Source of the DNA: Acinetobacter sp.
Lineage (GTDB): Bacteria; Pseudomonadota; Gammaproteobacteria; Pseudomonadales; Moraxellaceae
Length of the DNA stretch: 64,000 nt
Direction of reading: 5' to 3'
Assembly (NCBI GenBank): GCA_031277915.1
Contig: JAITLL010000034.1
Span: forward strand, 112,428 to 176,427
Position numbers and translations under genes: made by a program. Shown piece after piece: positions 7,961-17,208 of the stretch. The stretch's first letter is position 1; every line of letters begins with the position of its first letter. A model generated the notes under the pieces. That model made no database searches. It saw only the letters and a program-made list of their open reading frames with translations, and was not told the origin of the DNA.

Positions 7961-7989
7961 TTGTCAAACTCATCAACAATGCGTATTTT
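7961..7989 (+). promoter_or_regulatory. Sigma70-type promoter of the aroG leader
   Basis: TTGTCA at 7961-7966 and TATTTT at 7984-7989 are separated by exactly 17 bases. This places the transcription start near 7996, about 30 bases before the first leader ATG. Assigned by eye. Confidence 0.55.
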
Positions 7990-8025: not shown

Positions 8026-8082
8026 ATGTTAAATCAATCTGTGAATTCTAACGCTTACTTTTATTTCTGGCAATTTAGTTAG
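8026..8082 (+). CDS. Aromatic leader peptide 1 (attenuator)
   Basis: An 18-codon ORF reading MLNQSVNSNAYFYFWQFS, with Tyr-Phe-Tyr-Phe-Trp and a further Phe near its end (codons 8056-8076). Short ORFs rich in the end-product amino acid, placed just before a terminator and a biosynthetic gene, are the hallmark of ribosome-mediated attenuation. The downstream gene is the first enzyme of aromatic amino acid synthesis. No strong ribosome binding site is present (GAGATAAAG precedes the ATG). Direct reading of codons; the function is inferred. Confidence 0.85.
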   Translation: MLNQSVNSNAYFYFWQFS

Positions 8083-8084
8083 TT

Positions 8085-8158
8085 GCCTGAGCGTATTCGG
8101 GCACGAAAGTTGCCCATCACAGTTAATACCTGATCGGCAACCCCGATCAGGTTTTTTT
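8085..8158 (+). terminator. Attenuator: competing hairpins and intrinsic terminator
   Basis: The terminator has arms CCTGATCGG (8129-8137) and CCGATCAGG (8143-8151) followed by seven T (8152-8158). Alternative pairings: 8085-8090 with 8097-8102; GGGCA 8099-8103 with TGCCC 8111-8115; and GTTGCC 8109-8114 with GGCAAC 8136-8141, which would break the terminator. A ribosome stalled on the aromatic codons would allow the first and third pairings (read-through). One finishing at the stop would favour the second, and then termination. Confidence 0.8.
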
Positions 8159-8191
8159 ATGCTTTATCTTTTTCAAATCGAGGAACTCAAA

Positions 8192-8284
8192 ATGAACAAT
8201 ATGACTTATTCATACTTTAGCAACTTTTATTGGTTTTACTTTTGCCTACCTTTGCCAACGAATAGATCCAAAACGCTCAAATAA
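8192..8284 (+). CDS. Aromatic leader peptide 2, between attenuator and aroG
   Basis: A 30-codon ORF that begins MNNMT and continues with YSYFSNFYWFYF, nine aromatic residues in twelve (codons 8207-8242). It has a good ribosome binding site, CGAGGA, at 8179-8184. It lies after the terminator, so it is transcribed only on read-through. No T-run follows it, so any control here is more likely at translation of aroG, whose ATG is 41 bases further on. This is direct reading; the role is inferred. Confidence 0.75.
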   Translation: MNNMTYSYFSNFYWFYFCLPLPTNRSKTLK

Positions 8285-8317
8285 ATGATCGGACTGATTC
8301 GGTTTCAGTCCAAAGGA
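8249..8317 (+). promoter_or_regulatory. Possible translational switch at the aroG ribosome binding site
   Basis: CCTTTG at 8249-8254, inside leader 2, is complementary to CAAAGG at 8311-8316, which overlaps the aroG Shine-Dalgarno AAAGGA. A competing hairpin GGACTGA 8291-8297 with TCAGTCC 8305-8311 lies just before it. A ribosome stalled on the aromatic run (8207-8242) would cover CCTTTG and free the site. Base pairing is seen; the mechanism is inferred. Confidence 0.45.
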
Positions 8318-8325
8318 AAAGACCA

Positions 8326-9381
8326 ATGAATGCTTTAAATACTTTACTAACTCAAAGTAATACAAAAGAAACACCAGTTAGTTTGCCTCTCCAGTTAAAA
8401 GCCAAATATCCGCTTGTGCAGACCTTCGCACGCCAAGTTGCAGAACACCGCCAAATTATTCAAAATATTCTTGCTGGTAAAGATCAGCGTTTAATGGTTA
8501 TTACAGGACCATGTTCAATTCATGATCCAGTTGCGGTTCTTGAATACGCAGAAAAATTACAAAAACTACAAGAAAAAGTAAAAGACCAAATTTTTATAGT
8601 GATGCGTACTTATATTGAAAAGCCTCGTACAACTGTGGGGTGGAAGGGCTTTATGTATGACCCAAATCTAGATGGTTCATCTAACCTACAATTAGGTTTA
8701 GAAAAATCACGTGAGCTTTATTTGCAAATTATTGAAAAAGGCTTGCCGATTGCCAGTGAAATTTTAAGTCCAATGGCAACCGGTTATTTCGATGATTTAT
8801 TGGCTTGGGGTGCAATAGGTGCTCGTACAAGTGAGTCTCAGATTCACCGTGAAATTTCAAGTCATATGCCATACAGCATTGGTTTCAAGAATGGTACAGA
8901 TGGTTCAATTCAGATTGCATTAGATGCGATTCAGTCAGCACAAAATGAGCATCAATTTTTAGGCATGAACCAACAAGGCTTGCCTTCAGTGATTCAGAGT
9001 GCTGGAAATCCATTGCCACATTTGATTTTGCGTGGAGCAAATCATGGCCCTAACTATGATTTAGCTTCAATTCAGGCAATACGTGAAAAATACAAACAAA
9101 ATCTTCCTGCATTAGTCATTGACTGTAGTCATGGTAACAGTGGTAAAGATCCTTTACGTCAGCCAGAGGTTTTGCAGAAAATCGTTGCTGAGCGTTTAAA
9201 AACTCAGGTAAAGGGTGTCATGATTGAAAGTCATTTGGTTGATGGTAGCCAAAAGATTTCTTGTGATATGACTTATGGACAGTCAGTAACTGATGGTTGT
9301 TTAGGGTGGGACAAAACTGAACAACTTTTGTTAGGTGTTGCTGAGCAATTAAAAGCGAGTGAATTAGCACATTCTGCTTAA
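8326..9381 (+). CDS. aroG: 3-deoxy-7-phosphoheptulonate (DAHP) synthase, class I
   Basis: Condenses phosphoenolpyruvate and erythrose-4-phosphate, the committed step of the shikimate pathway. The 351 residues match class I-alpha enzymes: ITGPCSIHDP near residue 60, YIEKPRTTVGWKGF, ARTSESQIHRE and DCSHGNSGKDP. Family members are feedback-inhibited by Phe, Tyr or Trp; which isozyme this is cannot be told by eye. AAAGGA at 8312-8317 is spaced eight bases from the ATG. Expression is probably governed by the two aromatic leader peptides upstream. Confidence 0.95.
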   Translation: MNALNTLLTQSNTKETPVSLPLQLKAKYPLVQTFARQVAEHRQIIQNILAGKDQRLMVITGPCSIHDPVAVLEYAEKLQKLQEKVKDQIFIVMRTYIEKPRTTVGWKGFMYDPNLDGSSNLQLGLEKSRELYLQIIEKGLPIASEILSPMATGYFDDLLAWGAIGARTSESQIHREISSHMPYSIGFKNGTDGSIQIALDAIQSAQNEHQFLGMNQQGLPSVIQSAGNPLPHLILRGANHGPNYDLASIQAIREKYKQNLPALVIDCSHGNSGKDPLRQPEVLQKIVAERLKTQVKGVMIESHLVDGSQKISCDMTYGQSVTDGCLGWDKTEQLLLGVAEQLKASELAHSA

Positions 9382-16544: not shown

Positions 16545-17051
16545 TTAGTTTTTAAGTGCTGGTGTCGCAGCAGCAATAGCAGCAGCAACAGCATCATCTT
16601 CTGTATTTGCAGGTGCCTTAGCTGGTTTTGACTGAGCTTTTTCCTGTTTAGGTTCAGCCTTTTTTTCTGGTTTTGGTTCGGCTTTAGGTTCAGATTTTTT
16701 TTCTGGCTTAGGTTCTACTTTAGGTGTCTCAGATGTAGGTTGTTCAGCAACTTGTGTCTGTGAAGATTCACTAGAGTGTGCAGGACGAGTTTCACGGCGG
16801 ATTTCAGTTGTAGTATTGGCTGTTTCTTCACGTTGAACTTCAACTTGTTGTTGCGCTTGCTCTTGAGCTTCTTGGTGAGTATCAACACTCTCTAAAGATT
16901 CAAATTTTGCAGGTTTCGCTGATTGAGGTTCTGAAACAGCAGTTTCAACCTTGTCTTGCTCTTCTTCTTTCGGTGTCTCTTTTTTAACGCATGCGGTTAA
17001 CAATAGTCCAGCCGCAATTGCAGCACAGATTAAAAGTTTTTTATTTGCCAT
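16545..17051 (-). CDS. Small Lys/Glu/Pro-rich lipoprotein
   Basis: 168 residues from the ATG at 17051. A signal peptide ends in lipobox LLTAC (Cys about residue 21). The mature part is low-complexity: Glu/Gln-rich helices, then PKPEKKSEPKAEPKPEKK-like repeats reminiscent of TonB or PopZ-like spacers, and an Ala-rich C-terminus (DDAVAAAIAAATPAL). It looks like a periplasm-spanning spacer rather than an enzyme. Stand-alone gene opposite pyrG; function unknown. Confidence 0.75.
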   Translation of the reverse strand: MANKKLLICAAIAAGLLLTACVKKETPKEEEQDKVETAVSEPQSAKPAKFESLESVDTHQEAQEQAQQQVEVQREETANTTTEIRRETRPAHSSESSQTQVAEQPTSETPKVEPKPEKKSEPKAEPKPEKKAEPKQEKAQSKPAKAPANTEDDAVAAAIAAATPALKN

Positions 17052-17208
17052 TGCCCAAAACAACATTTAATTGAGGAGTTGTCATTATAACAGTAAATAG
17101 CAATGAAAAAATCATGTCAGATTGAGCTAATTTTTTATTAAAAATGCTGTTAGAATAACCAGTTGTTTATTGTTCTTTGAATTGATGCGGTTTGACTTTG
17201 CTTTATAG

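Follow-up and report, generated by a model that had tools for sequence, protein, structure and literature searches.

Two aromatic leader peptides in series upstream of an Acinetobacter DAHP synthase gene: a candidate tandem of transcription and translation attenuators

We analysed a stretch of 64,000 nucleotides (nt) from an Acinetobacter sp. draft genome (GCA_031277915.1, contig JAITLL010000034.1), referred to here as the window, focusing on the region upstream of aroG, which encodes a type I 3-deoxy-7-phosphoheptulonate (DAHP) synthase. In the window, clpA and a YnfA-family gene are followed by a leader region of ~424 nt and then by aroG, the gene presumed to be under the control of this leader. 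The nearest solved chain to the aroG product is 6agl, a Tyr-sensitive DAHP synthase. Within the leader region we identified two short open reading frames (ORFs) with aromatic codon runs, leader 1 and leader 2, separated by an intrinsic terminator; a hairpin lies between the stop codon of leader 2 and the Shine-Dalgarno sequence of aroG (Table 1).

Table 1. Features of the aroG leader region, in window positions.
Feature	Position	Strand	Basis
Candidate promoter TTGTCA-17-TATTTT, 5' of leader 1	7961-7989	+	promoter scan
Leader 1 ORF, MLNQSVNSNAYFYFWQFS	8026-8082	+	ORF reading, comparison with relatives
Intrinsic terminator of leader 1: 10-bp stem 8128-8152 and T-run	8128-8158	+	terminator scan, conservation
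Shine-Dalgarno of leader 2, GAGG, 8 nt before ATG	8180-8183	+	direct reading
Leader 2 ORF, 30 codons, MNNMTYSYFSNFYWFYFCLPLPTNRSKTLK; aromatic run 8207-8242	8192-8284	+	direct reading, conservation, pN/pS
Strand predicted to cover the aroG start: 8219-8222/8331-8334, 8226-8237/8319-8330, 8239-8244/8311-8316	8219-8244	+	predicted fold
Hairpin GGACTGA-TTCGGTT-TCAGTCC, 6 nt past leader 2 stop, directly 5' of aroG Shine-Dalgarno	8291-8311	+	
aroG start region: AAAGGA Shine-Dalgarno and AUG	8312-8328	+	direct reading, folding
aroG, type I DAHP synthase	8326-9381	+	NCBIfam PRK12755 and aroFGH above cut-off

Leader 1 resembles the classical transcription attenuators of the E. coli trp and phe type, in which a regulatory codon run is followed by an intrinsic terminator, and both elements were found here in that order. 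For comparison we assembled 113 Acinetobacter loci (73 named, 39 unnamed and the window) with 108 distinct upstream regions. The leader 1 terminator was detected in all 113, and some of its stems are altered on both sides. By eye, the leader 1 region (8070-8152) also contains repeated UUGCC/GGCAA segments that are alike across Acinetobacter and could form alternative hairpins in relay ahead of the terminator. A 7-nt match between TGAGCGT in leader 1 and ACGCTCA in the tail of leader 2, seen by eye in the window, was dropped, not being kept in relatives.

Leader 2 differs from this classical type in having no intrinsic terminator: no T-run follows it, and the terminator scan found no terminator-like site on the + strand in 8192-8326. 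Nine of 12 consecutive residues are aromatic (YSYFSNFYWFYF). A preliminary description of this DNA, made from the letters alone and the source of the gene name aroG used here, had reported the 30-codon ORF with its nine aromatic residues in 12, its good ribosome site and the missing T-run, and all these sequence facts proved correct. The same description held that leader 2 is transcribed only when the terminator is read through. The promoter scan revealed no promoter-like site on the + strand in the 40 nt separating terminator and leader 2, and transcription of leader 2 by read-through is therefore likely. The window contains 2987 stretches of 12-80 residues between stops, and two of them have nine aromatics in 12; the second case is spurious, lying antisense to a Lys/Glu-rich coding repeat in the gene at 16545-17066 (-). 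In 20 mononucleotide shuffles of the window, none of 73,247 stretches attained this density.

An aromatic-rich ORF of 20-49 codons with its stop 18-75 nt upstream of aroG, the rule by which we defined leader 2 in Acinetobacter, is present in 111 of the 113 loci. These loci comprise 98 different segments encoding 75 different peptides; W occurs in 68 of the peptides. The two loci missed by the rule are L088, where an aromatic ORF ends nearer aroG, and L090, where none is convincing. Constraint on the aromatic core was frame-specific: the ratio of nonsynonymous to synonymous polymorphism (pN/pS) was 0.39 in frame versus 1.27 and 0.88 out of frame, as calculated from 59 distinct windows drawn from the 89 of 98 segments that pass a motif filter. 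Whole leaders of 30 and 34 codons gave 0.68 and 0.55, respectively, versus 0.94-1.20. The second leader is real and conserved, and probably functional. By eye, no comparable leader was found among upstream ORFs with at least four aromatics in 12 in 15 other genera of Moraxellaceae (one genome each), which carry a single DAHP synthase of 46-51% identity, nor among the ORFs upstream of the second DAHP synthase of the window genome. Two same-genus genomes carry only this other DAHP synthase.

Some Acinetobacter leaders are divergent. In L069-L071 (A. apis, A. rathckeae and A. baretiae), L084, L085 and L089, leader 2 is much changed and still aromatic. The frame is disrupted relative to relatives in the draft genome L072, which nevertheless passes the rule; this could be a sequencing error. 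The last seven codons (8264-8284 in the window) have a pN/pS of 1.00 and are alike in nucleotides only. This tail often reads AGAYCC followed by NNG CTC AAA TAA, and no partner strand was found for it.

A class-wide search turned up a single additional genome whose enzyme is close (54% identity) and preceded by two aromatic leaders (L135), and in the family of that genome 117 of 148 genomes match at E <= 1e-100. Using the motifs YWFS and WR[FY], which were written after the first 33 of the 73 loci had been viewed, we found both leaders in 71 of 73 loci of this second family. The peptides differ from those of Acinetobacter, leader 1 being of the ...YFFYGYWFSQRRA type and leader 2 of the ...YYRYYRNSDWRFS...RTPR type. 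The two loci without leaders, L166 and L167, have enzymes of 49-50% identity. By a crude rule, a G+C run followed by at least four T lies between the leaders in 69 of the 71 loci. In nine loci of further families (L212, L214-L221), inspection by eye showed leader 1 in eight and a leader-2-like ORF in four (L212, L217, L219 and L220).

The Rfam family RF00627, catalogued as the Pseudomonas small RNA (sRNA) P15, matches all seven second-family loci tested (L151:252-372, L148, L168, L172, L174, L191 and L154) over the end of leader 1 and the terminator, and three of eight further-family loci tested (L214, L217 and L219). The window gave no match at the gathering score and none in the list up to E 5. 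Because RF00627 matches its loci, we infer that the second family lies in or near Pseudomonas. The match falls on the attenuator region of leader 1, with leader 2 not covered, which suggests that the P15 "sRNA" is an attenuated aro leader.

That leader 2 could be a functionless, decaying duplicate of leader 1 might be read from its variability, which by eye exceeds that of leader 1, and from the broken frame in L072. However, its retention in two families and its frame-specific constraint in Acinetobacter make this explanation hardly credible.

How leader 2 might act on aroG was addressed through its predicted pairing with the aroG start region. In the preliminary description, CCTTTG within leader 2 (8249-8254) was proposed to pair with CAAAGG at the aroG ribosome site (8311-8316). 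Both motifs occupy these positions, but as a general switch the pairing fails: it is available in 3 of 98 leaders and has a predicted probability of 0.02-0.04 in the window. What is kept across Acinetobacter is the aromatic leader, not this pairing. The better candidate for covering the aroG start, judging from the folding models, is the aromatic codon run itself. Its long complementarity to the aroG start region had gone unremarked, as had the hairpin. In the window, the helix 8226-8237/8319-8330 has a predicted probability of 0.55-1.0 and leaves the AUG fully paired, whereas the Shine-Dalgarno helix 8239-8244/8311-8316 reaches 0.22-0.46, the stronger helix covering the AUG side. Pairing probabilities are much the same in the 445-nt whole read-through RNA. 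Of 18 start-region nucleotides in the 98 segments, 7.3 are paired to the aromatic core and 2.8 to the N-terminal part; in 89 segments one of these two parts of leader 2 is the chief pairing partner of that region. With the codon run as covering strand, the stall site and the covering strand would therefore be the same nucleotides. A column-pair scan for other helices gave nothing above U-rich wobble noise.

To quantify this arrangement we used the predicted cost of opening the Shine-Dalgarno sequence and AUG (in kcal/mol), a measure chosen after the AUG signal had been seen, in 51 non-redundant Acinetobacter and 43 non-redundant second-family leaders, each set against recoded and swapped controls. 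In the free state, native Acinetobacter leaders hold the start more tightly, with a cost of 6.26 versus 5.12 for recoded (35/51, p = 3.8e-4) and 4.88 for swapped leaders (34/51, p = 1.3e-4). With 60 nt of coding sequence included, the corresponding values are 5.85, 4.72 (p = 2.7e-4) and 4.83 (p = 8e-3). With a stalled ribosome the costs of native and recoded leaders are 4.76 and 4.52 (p = 0.24). The opening on stalling (60 nt of coding sequence) is 1.30 for native versus 0.52 for recoded leaders (p = 8.9e-3), and in the shorter RNA it is likewise above the recoded controls (p = 0.013).

In the second family it was the stalled state that distinguished native leaders, with a cost of 4.86 against 5.12 for recoded (p = 0.018) and 5.41 for swapped (p = 4.8e-3) leaders. 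The opening on stalling is 1.24 versus 0.36 for swapped leaders (p = 2e-3); 20 of 43 open by at least 1 kcal/mol and two close. The exact complementarity of leader 2 to the start region also runs longer than in controls (longest match 6.19 nt versus 5.48 recoded, p = 4.7e-4, and 5.43 swapped, p = 2.2e-3). It covers the W codon in 26 of 43 and takes a different form in each clade: GACTGGC/GCCAGTC, CTGGCG/CGCCAG, TTTTGC/GCAAAA or CTGTTTTCCT/AGGAAAACAG. In Acinetobacter this complement slightly exceeds that of swapped leaders (5.78 versus 5.58, p = 0.03). Each family therefore shows co-adaptation of leader 2 and the start region, on different measures.

In models of the window, a ribosome on the codon run opens the start: the cost is 10.1 in the free state, falls to 2.4-3.4 for A-site positions W-4 to W+5, a span that holds F-Y-W-F-Y-F, and rises to 6.4 at W+6 and to 8.2-11.7 farther on. 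For the complete leader RNA the values are 4.9 free, 3.9 at Y6, 2.6-3.0 on F9 to L19, 7.3 at P22 and 7.7 at the stop. Averaged over 91 Acinetobacter segments, a ribosome on the core changes the cost by approximately -2 (median -0.9 at W) and one at the stop by +0.7. Opening of the start by a ribosome that sits on the covering strand is a mechanical outcome of such models; the informative part is that the strand is the codon run and appears co-adapted.

Taken together, we consider it probable that a single DAHP synthase mRNA carries two successive attenuators, the first controlling transcription and the second translation. Of the earlier proposal of two such leaders, the switch on aroG translation now has comparative evidence, whereas the pairing named for it does not. 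Stalling, the direction of control, the size of the response and the effect in cells are all inferred. Leader 1 would serve as the transcription attenuator, ribosome stalling on its Tyr, Phe and Trp codons favouring read-through of the terminator, and the RNA of leader 2 would be made only upon such read-through. When aromatic tRNAs are charged, ribosomes would run through leader 2, leaving the sensing codons to pair with the aroG Shine-Dalgarno and AUG and to keep aroG translation low. When an aromatic tRNA is scarce, a ribosome parked on these codons would occupy the covering strand and free the aroG start.

Several observations weigh against this model. The p-values overstate the independence of the data because the species are related. 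In Acinetobacter, the stalled cost of 4.76 exceeds the 4.00 of swapped leaders (p = 0.03), the excess pairing of the AUG over controls persists in the stalled state, and the Shine-Dalgarno taken alone shows neither pairing above recoded controls nor an accessibility signal. The opening of 1.30 on stalling is not above the 0.90 of swapped leaders (p = 0.39), and 25 of 51 leaders open by at least 1 kcal/mol while three close (both with 60 nt of coding sequence). The longest complement of 5.78 is not above that of recoded controls (5.67, p = 0.18), and the whole segment is slightly less stable than they are (-32.5 versus -33.0). For the window itself, swapped leaders close the start as well as its own leader does (6.5 versus 6.2, with 60 nt of coding sequence), and the switch shrinks with longer RNA from about 7 to 3.4 and then 2 kcal/mol. 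In its whole leader RNA, a ribosome at R25 gives 4.6, a cost like that of the free state. The column-pair scan for covariation did not list the cover helix 8226-8237/8319-8330. In the second family, the free cost of 6.10 is not above that of recoded (6.17, p = 0.68) or swapped (5.76, p = 0.26) leaders, the opening of 1.24 is not above 1.04 for recoded leaders (p = 0.59), and the pN/pS of the leader 2 core does not single out the reading frame (0.83, against 0.88 and 0.61 in the other two; 38 windows). A final point concerns the LEU element of actinobacterial leuA, in which, as is predicted for leader 2, the regulatory codon run pairs with the Shine-Dalgarno of a downstream biosynthetic gene. 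According to PMC1262725, changes to its leucine codons were without effect on leuA regulation, and the authors consider attenuation by leader codons unlikely. The LEU element is described there for leucine and with a pseudoknot.

The same paper suggests Rho for leaders without a terminator (PMC1262725). Stalling in leader 2, which no intrinsic terminator follows, could work through Rho-dependent termination, or through mRNA decay, and leave the aroG start unaffected. This we regard as quite unlikely, since complementarity between leader 2 and the start above that of swapped controls would not be predicted.

The hairpin that follows leader 2 bears on two further explanations. Its pattern has a single exact copy in the draft genome. 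In Acinetobacter the stem starts exactly 6 nt past the leader 2 stop in 84 of 98 segments; in 74 its end lies 2 nt short of the AGG core. The loops span 3-11 nt. In a 51-sequence alignment, 90.8% of hairpin cells pair, versus 7.8-43.8% when the strands are slid; three of the seven pairs are invariant, and two are changed on both sides (13 cells versus 8.6 in shuffles, a count attained by 35 of 500 shuffles). In the second family, a stem of at least five pairs occupies the same place in all 67 distinct segments, starting 6 or 8 nt past the stop in 53 (26 and 27, respectively). Among the divergent Acinetobacter loci, L069-L071 and L089 have a different hairpin and L084 and L085 have none.

At such spacing a ribosome terminating on leader 2 would touch the stem in both families. 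The leader could then act through translational coupling, with translation of leader 2 to its stop leading to termination and re-initiation at aroG past the hairpin and with no sensing of starvation; the nucleotide-level likeness of the Acinetobacter tail, free of amino-acid constraint, would fit. Such coupling, however, would lower aroG expression in starvation and leaves the aromatic run unexplained. In 32 of 51 Acinetobacter leaders the models close the start more tightly, by at least 1 kcal/mol, when the ribosome is at the stop than when it is on the core; the reverse holds in four. We therefore hold coupling to be unlikely.

Alternatively, the hairpin and the adjoining Shine-Dalgarno could form the site of a regulatory protein or an sRNA, the leader 2 peptide being incidental. 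GGACT/AGTCC is indeed nearly invariant in Acinetobacter although the loop is free. On the other hand, the second-family stem is quite different in sequence and G+C-rich, and Acinetobacter stems have been rebuilt in L032, L067, L082 and L089. Structure is therefore favoured over sequence, and we judge such a site very unlikely. In the model of two attenuators in series, the hairpin may stack on the cover helix as a spacer, or may bar post-termination ribosomes from sliding to aroG.

We lean, with little more than even confidence, towards a broader proposal, in which the enzyme at the entry to aromatic synthesis is controlled, widely in Acinetobacter and Pseudomonas, by a gate that ribosomes operate in two stages. 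DAHP synthase would be made only after two ribosomes on the same RNA had each sensed starvation. The sensing codons would cover the start and co-evolve with it, the stem near the leader stop would reset the gate, and P15 would be a by-product of the first stage.

Related systems differ from this arrangement in part. In erm/cat translational attenuation a ribosome stalled in the leader frees a covered start, as is predicted for leader 2, but there stalling is drug-induced and the sensing codons are separate from the covering strand. A TnaC-like arrest is unsupported, the distance from W to the stop varying with leader length. In the model for B. subtilis anti-TRAP (rtpA/yczA), a ribosome completing the leader blocks the Shine-Dalgarno, whereas in the aroG leader the sensing codons themselves are the predicted partner of the start site. 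The first sensor of anti-TRAP is a T-box and that of aroG a leader peptide; anti-TRAP responds to Trp and makes an anti-repressor, whereas aroG would respond to mixed Tyr/Phe/Trp and makes the first enzyme of the pathway. DAHP synthase is likewise the product of aroA in the aroA-tyrA operon of Vibrio. PMC1173090 places putative attenuators ahead of that operon. According to PMC11255114 (citing Chen and Yanofsky, 2003, 2004), anti-TRAP is under the control of a T-box and, in translation, of ribosome stalling that depends on tRNA, so that uncharged tRNA is sensed in tandem, in transcription and translation, as is proposed for aroG. Salmonella mgtCBR also has two short ORFs in one leader region; both are anticipated, according to PMC3641672, to affect transcription of the coding region, whereas aroG leader 2 is predicted to act on translation.

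The preliminary description knew of no described example at an aro gene. Among the matches listed in our literature search, which covered Acinetobacter and not Pseudomonas, there is indeed no report on Acinetobacter aroG leaders, and aroG is not mentioned in the available portions of PMC2965389 or PMC11472050. Tandem sensing and pairing of codons with a Shine-Dalgarno nevertheless have published precedents in anti-TRAP and leuA. If correct, the two-leader arrangement before a DAHP synthase gene would be the equivalent, in two large genera of Gram-negative bacteria, of the tandem sensor of B. subtilis, with a leader peptide at both stages. It would follow a compact rule, the codons that sense also covering the start site, for which more than 100 natural variants are at hand as a test, and would explain the catalogued Pseudomonas RNA P15.

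The candidate promoter upstream of leader 1 comes from a scan that gave five sites in total, below the shuffled mean of 7.7; its TTGTCA recurs in 100 of 113 Acinetobacter loci, between -460 and -290. The whole leader region is also matched at 97.7%, beside aroF, in CAKLQF020000008.1 and CAKLQH020000043.1, two records of Acinetobacter phage MD-2021a that may be chromosomal contigs filed as phage. Elsewhere in the window, the gene at 16545-17066 (-) encodes a low-complexity protein rich in Lys, Glu and Pro that by eye appears lipoprotein-like.
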